NCBI GenBank assembly: GCA_040756715.1
Contig: JBFLYE010000074.1
Location: 1-9,964, forward strand
Origin: JBFLYE01 sp040756715 [NCBI: bacterium]
Lineage (GTDB): Bacteria; UBA9089; UBA9088
Direction: 5' to 3'
DNA length: 9,964 nucleotides
Both the position numbers and the translations under genes were made by a program. The notes below the pieces were generated by a model that saw nothing but the letters and a program-made list of their open reading frames with translations, had not been told where the DNA came from and did no database searches. Shown here in pieces: positions 1,615-7,301 of this stretch (the first letter of the stretch is position 1; each line of letters begins with the position of its first letter).

Positions 1615-4263
1615 ATGGCAAAGTATGTATATTTCTTCGGAAATGGAAAGGCAGATGGAGGGACAGGGTTAAAATCCCTCTTGGGAGGAAAGGGTGCTGA
1701 CTTAGCTGAGATGACCAACATTGGGATTCCGGTTCCCCCCGGATTTACCATTTCAACCGAGGTTTGTAGCTATTATTATAAGAATAGTGAATATCCCGAA
1801 GGTCTAAGGGATGAGGTTGAAAAGGCTTTGGAAAAGCTGGAAAATGCAATGCAAAGGGGGTTTGGAAATAAGGAAAACCCCCTTTTGGTTTCTGTTCGCT
1901 CTGGTGCGCCAATTTCAATGCCGGGAATGATGGATACAATCCTTAATCTGGGCTTAAATGATGAGACAATAAAGGGCTTTATAAAGCAGACAGGAAACGA
2001 GAGGACAGCCTACGATGCCTATAGAAGGTTTATCCAAATGTTTTCTGATATTGTCCTTAAAATAGAGATTAAGAAATTTGAGGATATCCTTTCTTCTAAA
2101 AAGAGAAAAAAGGGTGTTGTCTATGATATTGAGCTTGACTGTGAAGACCTTAAGGAAGTTGTGAAGGATTACAAAAGGCTGGTTGCTTCAGAGAAAAAGG
2201 ATTTTCCACAAGACCCAAGGGAACAGCTATGGATGTCTATTGATACAGTATTTGGAAGCTGGCATAACAAAAGGGCTATTGAGTACAGAAGGATATACAA
2301 AATCTCCGATACATTAGGAACAGCGGTAAATGTCCAGGCAATGGTCTTTGGAAATATGGGAGATACATCGGGAACAGGCGTTGCATTTACAAGAAATCCC
2401 TCAAATGGCGAAAAGAGGCTTTATGGCGAGTATCTTATCAATGCCCAAGGAGAGGATGTTGTTGCCGGGATAAGGACACCAAAGCACATCTCTCATCTTC
2501 ACGATCAGATGCCCAATATTTACAAAGAATTTGAAAGGATTGCAAAGCTTCTTGAAAAGCATTACAAGGATATGCAGGACATAGAATTTACCATTGAGAA
2601 TGGAAATTTATATATCCTCCAGACAAGAAAGGGAAAGAGAACACCAGCCTCCTCGGTCAAAATTGCTGTGGATATGGTAAAGGAGAAGCTGATTACAAAG
2701 GATACCGCATTATTAAGGGTTGAAGCAGGTAGTTTAAAAGCCCTCCTTCACCCCCAGATTGACCCAAGTGCGGATATTTCTTCTGATTGCACAGGCCTTC
2801 CTGCATCCCCTGGGGTTGCTATTGGAAAGATTGTCTTTTCTCCCGATGATGCTGTAAAGATGTCAGAGAAGGATAAGGTTATCCTTGTAAGGGAGGAGAC
2901 ATCTCCCGATGACATCCATGGAATGGCTGTATCAGAGGGAATCCTTACTGCAAGGGGTGGAATGACATCGCATGCCGCTGTGGTTGCTCGGGGGATGGGA
3001 AAGCCCTGTGTCTGCGGATGTGAGATAATAAAGATTGATGAGAAGAAAAAGGAGCTAGAGGTAGAGAAAAAGAGGCTAAAGGAGGGCGATGAGATAACCA
3101 TAGATGGAACAACGGGCAGGGTTTATCTTTCTCGCATTCCATTCATTATTCCACCAAGGATAACCGATGAGCTAAATACCCTTCTTACATGGGCTGATCA
3201 GAAAAGGAGGCTTCGTGTTCGCACAAATGCCGATGACCCAGAGAGTGCAAAAAAGGCAAGGGAATTTGGTGCAGAGGGAATAGGTCTATGCAGAACAGAG
3301 CATATGTTCTTTGGAGAGGAAAGACTTCCCATTATGCAAGAAATGATAATGGCAGAAAAAGAGTTGGATAGGAGAAAGGCATTGGACAAGCTCCTCTCAT
3401 TCCAGAGGGAAGATTTTATGGGAATCTTTAGAGCAATGCAAGGCCTTCCTGTAACCATAAGGCTGCTTGACCCGCCTTTACATGAATTCCTTCCAAAGCA
3501 TGAGGAATTAAGGATTGAGCTTATAAAATTAAGGGTTGAGGATAAAGAGCAAGAAAGACAAAAAGAGATTGAGAAGCTATTGCATAAGGTTTCTAATCTC
3601 TCTGAGATAAACCCAATGCTAGGCTTAAGGGGATGCAGGCTTGGGATAGTTTATCCTGAGATCTCCGAGATGCAAACAAGGGCAATCTTAGAGGCAGCCT
3701 GTATCTTGGCAAAGAAGGGAATAGAGGTTTTCCCAGAGATAATGATTCCTTTGGTTTCAGATAAACAAGAATTTGATGAACAAAAAATGGTAGTAGATAA
3801 GACAGCAGAAAGGGTATTTAAGGAGCAGGGGATTAAGGTAAAATACATGGTTGGAACAATGATTGAGGTTCCCAGGGCGAGCCTTGTGGCAGACAAAATT
3901 GCAGAAAGTGCTGAATTTTTCTCCTTTGGAACAAATGACCTAACCCAGATGACCTTTGCCTTCTCCAGGGATGATGCAGAGAGGAAATTTCTTCCCAAGT
4001 ATTTAGTTGATAAAATATTGAAGGATAACCCATTTGAGGTATTAGACCAGGAGGGTGTGGGCGAGCTTATAAAAATGGGGGTTGAGAGGGGAAGGAAGAC
4101 AAGGAAGGAGCTTAAGGTTGGCATCTGTGGAGAGCATGGCGGAGAGCCATCCTCAGTGATATTCTGCGACAAAGCTGGCCTTGACTATGTCTCCTGTTCA
4201 CCCTATAGGGTTCCTATCGCCCGCTTAGCCGCAGCTCAGGCAAGGGTGAAAAAAGAGGGATAA
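1615..4263 (+). CDS. ppdK: Pyruvate, phosphate dikinase
   Basis: This 882-residue cytoplasmic enzyme interconverts pyruvate + ATP + Pi and PEP + AMP + PPi, and can serve gluconeogenesis or PPi-linked glycolysis. It is full length for the family. The N-terminal nucleotide-binding domain has GGKGADLAEM (24-33), PVPPGF (39-44) and SVRSGAPISMPGMMDT (93-108). The swivelling phosphohistidine domain has TARGGMTSHAAVVARGMGKP with His453. The C-terminal PEP/pyruvate TIM barrel has GLCRTEHMFF (557-566), RLLDPPLHEFLP (616-627), GLRGCRLGI (670-678), GTMIEVPRASLV (747-758), FGTNDLTQMTF (771-781) and the catalytic Cys838 in [10 protein letters not shown]. It is the first gene of the rightward operon. Codons 810-873 (4042-4235) are repeated exactly at 4868-5061 beyond two inserted genes. 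The present C-terminus (ARVKKEG) therefore seems to have been brought in with the cassette, replacing an original ARIKNKEEE end. Confidence 0.97.
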   Translation: MAKYVYFFGNGKADGGTGLKSLLGGKGADLAEMTNIGIPVPPGFTISTEVCSYYYKNSEYPEGLRDEVEKALEKLENAMQRGFGNKENPLLVSVRSGAPISMPGMMDTILNLGLNDETIKGFIKQTGNERTAYDAYRRFIQMFSDIVLKIEIKKFEDILSSKKRKKGVVYDIELDCEDLKEVVKDYKRLVASEKKDFPQDPREQLWMSIDTVFGSWHNKRAIEYRRIYKISDTLGTAVNVQAMVFGNMGDTSGTGVAFTRNPSNGEKRLYGEYLINAQGEDVVAGIRTPKHISHLHDQMPNIYKEFERIAKLLEKHYKDMQDIEFTIENGNLYILQTRKGKRTPASSVKIAVDMVKEKLITKDTALLRVEAGSLKALLHPQIDPSADISSDCTGLPASPGVAIGKIVFSPDDAVKMSEKDKVILVREETSPDDIHGMAVSEGILTARGGMTSHAAVVARGMGKPCVCGCEIIKIDEKKKELEVEKKRLKEGDEITIDGTTGRVYLSRIPFIIPPRITDELNTLLTWADQKRRLRVRTNADDPESAKKAREFGAEGIGLCRTEHMFFGEERLPIMQEMIMAEKELDRRKALDKLLSFQREDFMGIFRAMQGLPVTIRLLDPPLHEFLPKHEELRIELIKLRVEDKEQERQKEIEKLLHKVSNLSEINPMLGLRGCRLGIVYPEISEMQTRAILEAACILAKKGIEVFPEIMIPLVSDKQEFDEQKMVVDKTAERVFKEQGIKVKYMVGTMIEVPRASLVADKIAESAEFFSFGTNDLTQMTFAFSRDDAERKFLPKYLVDKILKDNPFEVLDQEGVGELIKMGVERGRKTRKELKVGICGEHGGEPSSVIFCDKAGLDYVSCSPYRVPIARLAAAQARVKKEG
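4042..4235 (+). repeat. Direct repeat copy A: 3' end of ppdK
   Basis: By direct base-by-base reading, these 194 bp are identical to 4868-5061 (offset 826 bp). The copy encodes ppdK residues 810-873 plus two bases of codon 874, including the catalytic Cys838 loop. The left boundary is sharp (ATTAG here, GTTAG in copy B). On the right, identity collapses within codon 874. The next codons still encode A-Q-A-R in both copies but with different synonymous bases, as between diverged homologues. Confidence 0.95.
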
Positions 4264-4264
4264 T

Positions 4265-4462
4265 ATGGAAAAAGAATATGCTTGGTTTCTGTTGCAAACA
4301 GACTTAGAAAAGAGATATTCAGGTGAGTATATTGCTATTGTAGGAAATTCTGTTGTGGCACATGGAAAGGATTTTAAGAATGTTTTAAAAAAAGCAGAAA
4401 AAAAAGGTGAAGAGCCTTTTATTTATAAAGTTCCACCAAAAGACAAACTTATGGTTGTATGA
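4265..4462 (+). CDS. Small DUF5678-like protein
   Basis: This 65-residue protein has no signal peptide or membrane segment. The core YSGEYIAIVGNSVVAHG (18-34), followed by a charged helix (DFKNVLKKAEKKGEE) and FIYKVP, fits the DUF5678-type pattern of a short beta strand, 'W/Y-I-A-I-V-G-x-x-V-V-A-x-G', a helix rich in Lys and a terminal strand. Its biochemical role is unknown to me. It starts one base after the ppdK stop (TAATATG) with a weak AGAGGGA site, and its stop overlaps the next ATG as ATGA. It and the protease therefore behave as a unit. Small proteins of this type often sit directly upstream of retropepsin-like genes in prokaryotic genomes (from memory), so a partner, substrate or antitoxin-like role is possible but unproven. 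Confidence 0.65.
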   Translation: MEKEYAWFLLQTDLEKRYSGEYIAIVGNSVVAHGKDFKNVLKKAEKKGEEPFIYKVPPKDKLMVV

Positions 4463-4863
4463 TTGAATTCTCTTTTGAAAAGGTATCCTCAGAGAAATTT
4501 GGCGAGGTCTTAAAACCTGTGATTCCTGTAACAATTATTGGGATGAAGAGAAAGGTAAATGTCTTTATGCTTCTTGATTCTGGGGCAGATATTTCAATGA
4601 TTCCATATTCAGTGGGAGAGGCTATTGGTATAGAATTCGATCTCTCAATGAGGGGAGAGGTTTGTGGAATAGGAGAGGGAAGTGTTCCTTATGTAGTGAG
4701 TAAAGTTAGATTCAGGATAAAAGATATTGAAATTCCATCTCGCATTGGATGGGCGTTGATTGAGGAAGTGCCACTTATTCTTGGTCGTTTAGATGTATTT
4801 CAAAAATTTGCCATAGAGTTTAGAGAATTTGAGAATAAGATTTTTCTTAAAAGTCCCCTTTAA
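4459..4863 (+). CDS. Retropepsin-like (clan AA) aspartic protease
   Basis: This 134-residue protein has the single-domain aspartic protease fold of retroviral proteases, which act as homodimers. The active-site motif [14 protein letters not shown] spans residues 36-49 with catalytic Asp40 in D-S-G-A. A flap-like region GEVCGIGEG follows at 66-74. The second hydrophobic-hydrophobic-Gly motif appears as [11 protein letters not shown] (104-114), ahead of the terminal strands. The length is normal for prokaryotic stand-alone retropepsins. No signal peptide or transmembrane segment is visible, so it should be cytoplasmic. The start overlaps the DUF5678-like stop (ATGA), giving translational coupling. 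Its stop codon sits inside a 13-nt palindrome at the junction with the duplicated ppdK end. The natural substrate is unknown. Its N-terminal residues ([19 protein letters not shown]) are the usual short lead-in strand for the family. Confidence 0.82.
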
Positions 4864-4867
4864 GGGG
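4855..4867. repeat. Palindrome CCCCTTTAAGGGG at the cassette/ppdK-fragment junction
   Basis: CCCCTT and AAGGGG flank a single central T, a 6-bp perfect inverted repeat ending exactly at the base before the duplicated ppdK segment begins (4868). It contains the protease stop codon TAA (4861-4863). A one-base loop is too tight for a good full hairpin, so as RNA it would be a shorter stem. It has no T-tract and is not a convincing terminator. Its exact position at the boundary is the notable point. Confidence 0.6.
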
Positions 4868-5061
4868 TTAGACCAGGAGGGTGTGGGCGAGCTTATAAAA
4901 ATGGGGGTTGAGAGGGGAAGGAAGACAAGGAAGGAGCTTAAGGTTGGCATCTGTGGAGAGCATGGCGGAGAGCCATCCTCAGTGATATTCTGCGACAAAG
5001 CTGGCCTTGACTATGTCTCCTGTTCACCCTATAGGGTTCCTATCGCCCGCTTAGCCGCAGC
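4868..5061 (+). repeat. Direct repeat copy B: 3' end of ppdK
   Basis: This is the second copy of the 194-bp segment at 4042-4235 with no mismatch that I can find. The unit-to-unit distance is 826 bp, made of the 194-bp repeat plus 632 bp of unique sequence carrying the two cassette genes. Copy B leads into the codons that overlap hemL and is therefore probably the original chromosomal end of ppdK. Confidence 0.95.
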
Positions 5062-5095
5062 ACAAGCGAGGATAAAGAATAAGGAAGAGGAATGA
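4868..5095 (+). pseudogene. 3'-terminal fragment of ppdK, probably the original gene end
   Basis: The reading frame encodes [11 protein letters not shown] through [13 protein letters not shown], about 75 residues matching ppdK from residue 810 to its end, including the catalytic-Cys loop CGEHGGEP. It has no nucleotide-binding, phosphohistidine or most of the barrel, so it cannot be an enzyme. The frame remains open upstream to a TTG at 4829 inside the protease gene, giving at most an 88-residue product with an unrelated lead. An in-frame ATG at 4901 is another possible restart, without a clear Shine-Dalgarno. The stop overlaps the hemL start as ATGA (5092-5095). Intact ppdK would therefore originally have been coupled to hemL, and translation of the relic could still feed ribosomes to hemL. 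Confidence 0.85.
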
Positions 5096-6375
5096 AAAAC
5101 TCCCCGAACATAAAAGACCTATACGAAAGAGCTCTTCAATATATACCAGGTGGTATAAATAGTCCAGCAAGGGCATTCAGGCCGGTTAAAGAAAAGCCAA
5201 TATTTGTTGAAAAAGGCTCGGGTGCTTATATTTTTGATAAGGAAGGAAAGAAATATATAGACCATTGCCTTTCTTTTGGTGCAATTATCTTAGGTCATAG
5301 CCATTCAAGGGTATCTTCTGCTATAAAAGAGGCAATAGACAAAGGAACAAACTTTGGTCTTTCAACAGAGAAAGAGGTTATTTTATCAGAGATAATCTGC
5401 AAGGCAATTCCATCTATTGAGAAAATAAGGCTTGTTAATTCAGGGACAGAGGCGGTTATGTCTGCTATTAGGCTTAGCCGAGGATGGACAAAAAGAAAAA
5501 GAATAATAAAATTTGAGGGTGGCTACCATGGCTGTGTTGATTCCCTCCTTGTCTCTTGTGGCTCATCCTTAACAACACTTGGAGTTCCAACCAGCTCTGG
5601 GATTCCAGAAGAATTTTTTCAAACAACAATTGTTCTTCCATATAATAACATTCCTTCATTTAAGGCAATAATTGAAAAATACCATCCTGAGATTGCCGCT
5701 GTTATTGTAGAGCCAATTGCGGGAAATATGGGTGTTATCCCAGCAAATTTGGAGTTCTTAAGGGTTTTAAGGGAAGAGACAGAGAAATACAAAATCCTCC
5801 TTATCTTTGACGAGATAATCACAGGCTTTAGATTATGCTTTGGCGGATTTCAAAATATTATTGGAATAAAGCCAGATATTACATTATTAGGAAAGATAAT
5901 TGGAGGTGGCTTGCCGATTGGTGCCTATGGTGGAAAAAAGGAGATAATGGATTGTCTTGCACCAGATGGAGATGTATTTTCTGCAGGAACATTCTCAGGA
6001 AATCCCATTGTTGCATCATGTGGCATTTCTGTTTTAAATATTTTAAAGGAGGAAAACCCATACAACCTGCTTGAGAAAAAGACAAAATACCTTTTAGAAG
6101 GCCTTTCTGGATGTGTCAAGGTAAATCAAGTTGGCTCAATGTTTACCATCTTCTTTACAGATAGCCCTGTATTTGATTACAAGTCTGCAAAGACCTCTGA
6201 TTGCGAAAGGTTTGCCAATTTTTTCAAAGGGCTGCTAAATAAAGGGATATATTTTCCACCCTCCCAATTTGAGGCTTGCTTTATTTCTACCTGCCATACA
6301 GATAAAGATATAGAGAAGACAAAAAAGGCAATTAATTTTTCCTTTGCAAATTTAAATTATAATATTGTAAAATAA
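5092..6375 (+). CDS. hemL: Glutamate-1-semialdehyde 2,1-aminomutase
   Basis: This 427-residue PLP enzyme converts glutamate-1-semialdehyde to 5-aminolevulinate, the tetrapyrrole precursor of the C5 pathway. The N-terminus has the family's [13 protein letters not shown] (18-29) and [15 protein letters not shown] (55-69). The cofactor region shows NSGTEA (116-121), GGYHG (143-147), FDEIITGFR (239-247) and the PLP lysine Lys268 in [17 protein letters not shown]. The C-terminal half has SAGTFSGNP (297-305) and a normal-length small domain. Several usually well-kept positions are altered: YHGC where YHGH is common, SCGSS where KAGSG is common, and GTFSGNP for GTLSGNP. It also carries about eleven cysteines. 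It is therefore a somewhat divergent member. A different class-III aminotransferase of the same family is less likely. The ATG overlaps the ppdK-fragment stop, with AAGGAAGAGG just upstream (5081-5090). Confidence 0.9.
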
Positions 6376-6873: not shown

Positions 6874-7301
6874 AGGATTTTATTTTATCAAGGGCCCAGC
6901 AAATGCTTGTTGCTATTTTTCTTTTATCTGCAATATTGGCATCATCTATCTTGATATTAAGGAGGATTAAAGAGGAAAGGCAATTTGCCAGGATAGAGGT
7001 TGTGGAGGGACAAATCCCAAATTTTAAATCCGAAATCCGAAATCCGAAATCCGAAACAAATTCAAAATCCAAAATTCCAGATCCCAAACAAATCCAAAAT
7101 CCAAAATCCAAAATAAATATAAACAGAGCAAACCTTAATGAACTTATAGGCCTTCCTGGAATTGGAGAAAACATAGCAAGAGAAATCATAAAATATAGAA
7201 AAGAAAATGGGACTTTTACATCATTAAAGGAGATAATGAAGGTAAAGGGAATTGGAAAAAAGAAATTTGAGAAATGCAAGGATATGATAAGAGTAGATTA
7301 A
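6837..7301 (+). CDS. ComEA-like membrane-anchored helix-hairpin-helix protein
   Basis: This 154-residue protein has one N-terminal membrane segment (MLVAIFLLSAILASSILIL, 23-41) and a C-terminal double helix-hairpin-helix DNA-binding domain. That domain carries ININRANLNELIGLPGIGE (93-111) and IMKVKGIGKKKFEKC (133-147). The architecture is that of ComEA-type proteins, which bind DNA outside the membrane during uptake, although similar single-anchor HhH proteins exist with unknown roles. The linker (about 59-93) is encoded by a degenerate AAATCC-type repeat and reads as low-complexity N-P-K-S words such as IRNPKSE. It overlaps ruvC by 37 nt. An alternative ATG at 6855 (MEQKYLKDF) would shorten the overlap to 19 nt and keeps all domains; neither start has a clear Shine-Dalgarno. 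A lone ComEA-like gene beside ruvC does not prove competence. Confidence 0.78.
   Translation: MSYSIIMEQKYLKDFILSRAQQMLVAIFLLSAILASSILILRRIKEERQFARIEVVEGQIPNFKSEIRNPKSETNSKSKIPDPKQIQNPKSKININRANLNELIGLPGIGENIAREIIKYRKENGTFTSLKEIMKVKGIGKKKFEKCKDMIRVD
7012..7115. repeat. AAATCCG/AAATCCA degenerate repeat array inside a coding sequence
   Basis: About a dozen 7-8-nt units occur. AAATCCG is repeated in tandem at about 7026-7053, followed by imperfect TTCAAAATCC, AAAATTCC, AAATCCCAAAC and three AAATCCA(A) units. The array sits entirely in the linker of the ComEA-like gene and keeps the frame open, encoding repeats of N/P/K/S/I. Similar AAATCC arrays are common between genes in some uncultured lineages (from memory). 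Related AATTCAAA units appear at 11-46. Confidence 0.85.

Follow-up and report, generated by a model that had tools for sequence, protein, structure and literature searches.

The 9,964-nt window analysed here, i.e., the whole stretch taken from contig JBFLYE010000074.1 of the bacterium JBFLYE01 sp040756715, carries a two-gene cassette lying between two copies of the 3' end of the gene ppdK. The full-length ppdK (1615–4263, on the forward strand like every feature of this locus) is an open reading frame (ORF) of 882 amino acids with PEP-utilizers_C and PPDK_N domains; its C-terminal part is 91% identical to that of a sister species, and it ends in ...AQARVKKEG. Its final segment consists of repeat copy 1 (4042–4235) and a short run of recoded last codons that we call tail A (4236–4263). 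A DUF5678 gene (4265–4462) and a gene for a retropepsin-fold protein (4459–4863) follow. The alignment of the junction then places at 4864–4867 the presumed illegitimate joint between the end of the cassette and the interior of ppdK, where 9 of the 13 bases preceding the repeat agree, weakly, with native ppdK. Repeat copy 2 (4868–5061) is a displaced 3' part of ppdK. It runs into tail B (5062–5095), which overlaps the start of the intact hemL gene (5092–6375, Aminotran_3; the name hemL was given by eye and in an earlier reading of this DNA, hereafter the original prediction) through an ATGA.

The two copies match at 194 of 194 positions, the bases flanking them differ on either side, and a repeat of this length cannot be due to chance. 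They are spaced 826 bp apart and enclose 632 bp, exactly the duplication and two-gene insert that the original prediction described. Its proposal that looping out one copy with the cassette would restore a ppdK of 884 codons coupled to hemL also agrees with the anatomy, since the displaced fragment ends in tail B and overlaps hemL as ATGA. Compared with the rest of its own 218-contig genome the region finds a single weak match of 46 bases, and no second close copy of the cassette was found there.

The first cassette gene encodes 65 amino acids and is assigned to DUF5678 with a comfortable score (PF18929, 67.2 bits against a cut-off of 23.2). The second, of 134 amino acids, matches Asp_protease_2 barely above threshold (24.8 bits, cut-off 24.3). 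Within its DSGAD motif, however, D40, G42, A43 and D44 are invariant in all 36 aligned relatives and S41 is kept in at least 90% of them; the AlphaFold model has a pLDDT of 92.8, and its best matches in the PDB are HIV and SIV proteases and Ddi1, with target-normalised TM scores of about 0.6–0.7. Judged by its D-[ST]-G motif and modelled fold, the second gene is thus that of a retropepsin, a clan AA aspartic protease. Two small co-oriented genes that overlap by ATGA have the layout of a type II toxin–antitoxin (TA) module, and the DUF5678 protein is a putative antitoxin-like partner. Our literature search found nothing that treats DUF5678 as a TA partner and nothing that joins retropepsin-like proteins with toxin–antitoxin systems. 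A diverged pair occurs elsewhere in the same genome (locus L043, G000:C84, 5343–6043), where a DUF5678 gene precedes a DTGA-motif protein without a Pfam match.

The sequences around the repeat edge tell something about where each part came from. Within the repeat, the ppdK of the window differs from that of the sister species at 35 of 194 positions. Other 100-base blocks of ppdK show 5–24 differences per 100, a range that includes this value, so the repeat looks native. Immediately beyond it the two tails are homologous and differ at 6 of 21 aligned bases: tail B is one base away from the sister tail and is probably the native ending, whereas tail A differs from the sister at 5 of the 21 bases and thus looks imported, probably with the cassette. 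The suggestion that the ppdK end derives from a donor is therefore borne out in part, for tail A. The same arrangement is seen at an oxidoreductase gene of the sister species, where a 254-bp repeat surrounds a PIN-like gene and the two endings read GGG ATT AGG GAG TAA and GGC GTT CGT GAA TAA. In both genes the repeat is perfect or nearly so until 28 bp (ppdK) or 13 bp (oxidoreductase) before the end of the full gene, after which nearly the same ending is spelled in different codons. At gyrB it is the gene start that is affected: the repeat (94% identical) begins 33 bases into the full gene, and the two gene beginnings differ. Codons that are recoded yet homologous, placed between repeat and module, make the same junction of a different lineage the probable origin of the insert. 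Going by the few bases behind this comparison, the insert probably brought the adjoining codons with it.

Two other junctions provide empty sites. In the window's genome an accB-like (biotin-carrier) gene overlaps tsaD (TCATAATG) with no insert, whereas in the sister the same junction holds a DUF5678/retropepsin pair, preceded by a 66-bp duplicate of the tsaD start (63 of 66 bases identical) and followed by a full tsaD. The reverse is seen for a gene with a GAF domain: the sister has it uninterrupted, whereas in the window's genome HicBA lies between two copies, 100% identical, of the first 60 bases of this gene. At both junctions the repeat starts at the start codon or one base earlier. Because the empty alleles carry neither module nor duplication, the two arrived together or close in time.

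These observations bear directly on the possibility that the gene end underwent a simple tandem duplication at a time when the cassette already lay behind ppdK, after which the tails diverged by mutation while gene conversion kept the interior of the repeat homogeneous. Such a history would suit the loci where mismatches cluster near the repeat edges, and in the window's genome a remnant that fuses the start and the end of an FTHFS-like gene resembles a decayed larger duplication. However, it requires five changes within 21 bases in tail A against one in tail B, relative to the sister, and it does not predict empty tsaD and GAF alleles that lack module and duplication alike. We consider it quite improbable.

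An artefact of assembly, where two strain haplotypes were joined through the shared 194 bp, had been named in the original prediction among the findings that would overturn it, and we regard it as very unlikely. The genome is a draft in 218 contigs, and contig ends that represent strain variants do exist in our collection: an orphan ppdK end in G050:C227 turned out to be one. However, the junction of the cassette with copy 2 lies inside a single contig and outside the repeat sequence, and two haplotypes sharing the repeat alone would not create it. Equivalent loci are also found with repeats of 60 and 66 bp, shorter than short reads usually are, each with its empty site in the other genome, and a gene-start duplication of 245 bp occurs in a genome that consists of a single record.

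The original prediction had proposed to look for the same cassette behind other duplicated gene ends, and the pattern does recur, both behind and before other genes. A search of 19 genomes of the phylum returned 20 retropepsin matches in 8 genomes. At least 7 of these 20 matches, the window included, belong to cassettes with a direct repeat immediately next to them. At G017:C369 the end of a cyclase-like gene is present three times around HicBA and DUF5678/retropepsin; at G001:C8 the start of tsaD is duplicated; at G010:C597 the end of a phosphoketolase-like gene surrounds a Bro-N gene, with the cassette following close to the contig end; and repeats abut the cassettes of G014:C118, G001:C211 and G014:C224. 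(The names HicBA, Bro-N, PIN and nucleotidyltransferase come from family searches, whereas cyclase, phosphoketolase, tsaD, gyrB, FTHFS, oxidoreductase, ilvC and asd were assigned by eye.) Ten of the 19 matches outside the window lie less than 600 bp from a contig end, where 2.7 are expected; such an excess is what flanking repeats would cause. In a wider collection, 13 of 80 retropepsin cassettes have flanking repeats compared with 29 of 788 control windows (p = 4e-5), with the proviso that control windows overlap one another and that at least three of the 80 (L122, L139, L150) are already among the loci of the phylum search. Two diverged DUF5678/DTG-motif pairs outside the 20 matches, L099 (G018:C128) and L100 (G018:C428), also lie between direct repeats.

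Some cassettes are stacked with other modules into arrays, of the form R-HicBA-R-DUF5678/retropepsin-R and R-MNT/HEPN-R-PIN-R-DUF5678/retropepsin-R, where R is a copy of the repeat. Such arrays would be explained by Campbell-type integration of a circle holding a ppdK end and the cassette, formed by loop-out at a similar locus of another strain, which also yields the same final anatomy as seen here. It demands, however, a donor repeat without a single difference from the native one across its 194 bp, next to a tail with 6 differences in 21 bases, although gene conversion at a later stage could reconcile the two. It also leaves the first acquisition of the module by each new gene unexplained. 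We therefore think it unlikely. Of the earlier proposal of an integrated 826-bp circle the insertion stands, and the circle is not needed given the empty sites, the interleaved repeats and the duplications of gene starts.

Not every repeat beside such modules is a gene end. The repeats that bracket TA arrays in G014, G017:C17 and G001:C17 appear by eye to be dispersed intergenic repeats and were set aside as examples. In the last of these, L247 (2670–7234) is an array of small modules, among them HEPN/MNT-like genes and two retropepsin-like genes (names mostly by eye), with the dispersed-looking repeat between modules. In G004:C8 (L038, 1526–1624), on a different contig from that genome's own ppdK, an orphan ppdK 3' end that is 70% identical to the ppdK of the window follows a gene that by eye looks exonuclease-like. 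This gene end may be what is left of an older event of this type.

To look at repeats independently of the cassette, we surveyed 685,347 bases, taken from 40 contigs of the window's genome (without the window itself) and from 20 stretches of sister contigs, for direct repeats of 33–450 bp, at least 85% identical and 350–1700 bp apart, with simple repeats and pairs within one ORF excluded. The threshold of the complexity filter was set after the data had been seen, as an initial harsher filter lost HicAB and other loci. The survey gave 19 repeat pairs, corresponding to 14 loci. Nine enclose TA-like genes: HicAB, DUF3368/UPF0175, DUF2283/DUF4258, MazF and HEPN/MNT at gyrB, a YoeB-like toxin (just under the cut-off), a single aspartyl protease, AbiEii, TumE, and the PIN-like protein of L250, named by eye only and without a Pfam or NCBIfam match. 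The dispersed-looking G001:C17 is counted among these nine. The five remaining loci are two tandem paralogues (L207, L238), a coiled-coil gene, an AAA ATPase and a probable assembly artefact (L250:14563–15739); the paralogues and the artefact were all retained in the denominator of 14. Repeats at the TA-like loci measure 37–254 bp, and the clearest of them duplicate the start or end of a housekeeping-type gene of which a full copy is still intact. Compared with 120 random matched segments, 28 of which hold complete ORFs (36 ORFs), the loose count of 9/14 TA-like loci exceeds both 4/28 (p = 0.002) and 4/120 (p = 4e-8). Part of this enrichment may reflect size, because the survey detects small inserts only and TA modules are small. 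In a further 117,602 bases of G017 we found one more locus, HEPN and a second gene between copies of a dispersed-looking repeat.

At the gyrB locus the repeats are interleaved: a first repeat copy (R1) is followed by an ORF without a name and MazF, the gyrB start, a second copy (R1'), HEPN/MNT and finally gyrB. This order fits an allelic fragment joined end-on. In L219 (G000:C28, 280–382) the first 34 bp of the FTHFS-like gene adjoin its last 55 bp, with DUF3368/UPF0175 and MazF modules alongside.

The variety of repeats and targets also argues against a site-specific recombinase acting in trans and replacing the gene end as at tRNA or icd sites. The replaced gene end does resemble what such elements leave. 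However, the ORF list and Pfam show no integrase or recombinase between the two repeats, as the original prediction had stated, and the repeats of 37–254 bp have as their targets the starts and ends of unrelated genes, among which a shared core was looked for by eye only. We regard this explanation as very unlikely.

Taken together, the empty sites, the interleaved repeats and the duplicated gene starts suggest that several different TA-like modules were inserted with long target duplication. Insertion of this type is known for restriction–modification genes, and with a TA-like cargo it is in our judgement the probable explanation of the ppdK locus. We class the locus as a variant because its cargo is DUF5678 with an aspartyl protease and not a restriction–modification gene. 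DNA carrying a related ppdK end and the module would enter the cell, perhaps through natural transformation. The left end of the incoming DNA would pair with the native ppdK end and thereby place tail A on the full gene, while the right end would be joined illegitimately 194 bp upstream of the point of pairing, so that the old gene end is displaced and kept as a fragment before hemL. Full gene, module and displaced gene end, in the order observed, are exactly what results when one end is anchored by homology in the gene and the other is joined illegitimately deeper within it. In operons of this kind only the duplicating, gene-sparing products would survive, and selection would lead us to expect that only these are seen. 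Loop-out between the direct repeats may in turn be disfavoured if loss of a TA-like module kills or stops the cell. We thus infer that one junction was homologous and the other illegitimate, and that addiction works against loop-out. Uptake of DNA appears possible from the gene content: ComEC (PF03772) and DprA (PF02481) families are present in all four genomes searched (in the window's genome the ComEC gene is divided between two contig ends), and a ComEA-like gene lies within the window itself.

Several published systems share parts of this anatomy. Insertions of restriction–modification genes with long target duplication (Nobusato et al., 2000, as cited in PMC1643837 and PMC3874152) likewise involve a small addictive-type unit, a direct target duplication of the order of 100 bp and an empty site in a related genome. 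The present loci differ in their TA-like and DUF5678/retropepsin cargo, in repeats that in the clear cases are gene starts or ends, in the recoded junction codons and in the stacked arrays. For immunity-gene arrays of the type VI system in Vibrio the authors invoke homology-facilitated illegitimate recombination (PMC5361080), in which one end is anchored by homology and the other joined illegitimately, the displaced old end is kept, and arrays grow by repetition; there, however, the displaced piece comes from the effector–immunity locus, whereas at the present loci it derives from an unrelated gene of housekeeping type whose intact copy is preserved. One homologous and one non-homologous junction, resulting in a flanking duplication, were also inferred by the authors for the PabI locus of Helicobacter ELS37 (PMC4615327), although that duplication spans 1577 bp around the insertion of a 50-kb ICE. 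Transposed genes of Arabidopsis, finally, are moved genes between direct repeats, which in many cases correspond to the target site as found in a related species (PMC2869330), but these are plant genes, a circle model is proposed for them, and there is no TA cargo. What is new here is the combination of TA-like cargo and recoded junction codons in an insertion with long target duplication, and the structure is real and recurrent.

A number of results weigh against this explanation. We found no relative with an empty ppdK–hemL site, and ppdK and hemL do not lie next to each other in the sister, so that the comparison of this junction suggested in the original prediction gave no counterpart, and empty sites are available only for tsaD and the GAF gene. 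The comparison of ppdK tails is based on just 21 bases. Neither Pfam, where the two cassette genes match DUF5678 and Asp_protease_2, nor NCBIfam, where they have no match, places the DUF5678/retropepsin pair in a named TA family. If TA-like loci are defined strictly, by a Pfam description that names a toxin or antitoxin, a score above cut-off and an ORF between the qualifying copies, only 4 of 14 survey loci remain (HicAB, MazF, AbiEii and TumE; the MazF gene of L219 sits outside the qualifying repeat pair and is excluded), which is not significant against 3/28 controls (p = 0.15) but is against 3/120 (p = 0.002). In two single-record genomes, of which 400 kb each was scanned, the same filter lets six loci through, none of them around a TA pair; two of the six are gene-terminus duplications, of which one encloses a membrane protein behind ilvC and the other, before asd, encloses sequence close to a type I restriction S-like fragment. 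In the wider collection, 67 of the 80 retropepsin cassettes have no flanking repeat at the threshold used, and several of the 13 positives are weak (L157, L169 and L178, with best scores of 25–32) or possibly due to paralogy (L151).

Three further features deserve mention. At 426–1475, upstream of ppdK, the minus strand of the window encodes a DNA methylase (N6_N4_Mtase), and the linker of the ComEA-like gene contains four imperfect copies of a 32-nt AAATCC-rich repeat (7012–7121). In L290 (G062, LR991653.1, 7673–9613), a single-record archaeal genome, the start of an asd-like gene is duplicated over 245 bp at 98% identity beside the type I S-subunit-like fragment.

A broader reading, which we offer tentatively and consider doubtful as it stands, is that TA-like modules including DUF5678/retropepsin are integrase-free elements that move between the same gene junctions of different species, take a recoded host-gene start or end with them, are held between direct repeats by their own addiction, and build arrays of modules and gene ends. 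The recurrence of the pattern in related genomes by itself suggests that TA-like pairs may enter working operons without a dedicated integration enzyme. The scar of such an event, recognisable as a second copy of a gene end or start whose junction codons are recoded, could be used to date and count insertions, and could test whether addiction sustains direct-repeat structures that are otherwise unstable. Annotators should also be aware that a short copy of the end of a housekeeping gene, when found next to a TA pair, may be such a scar.

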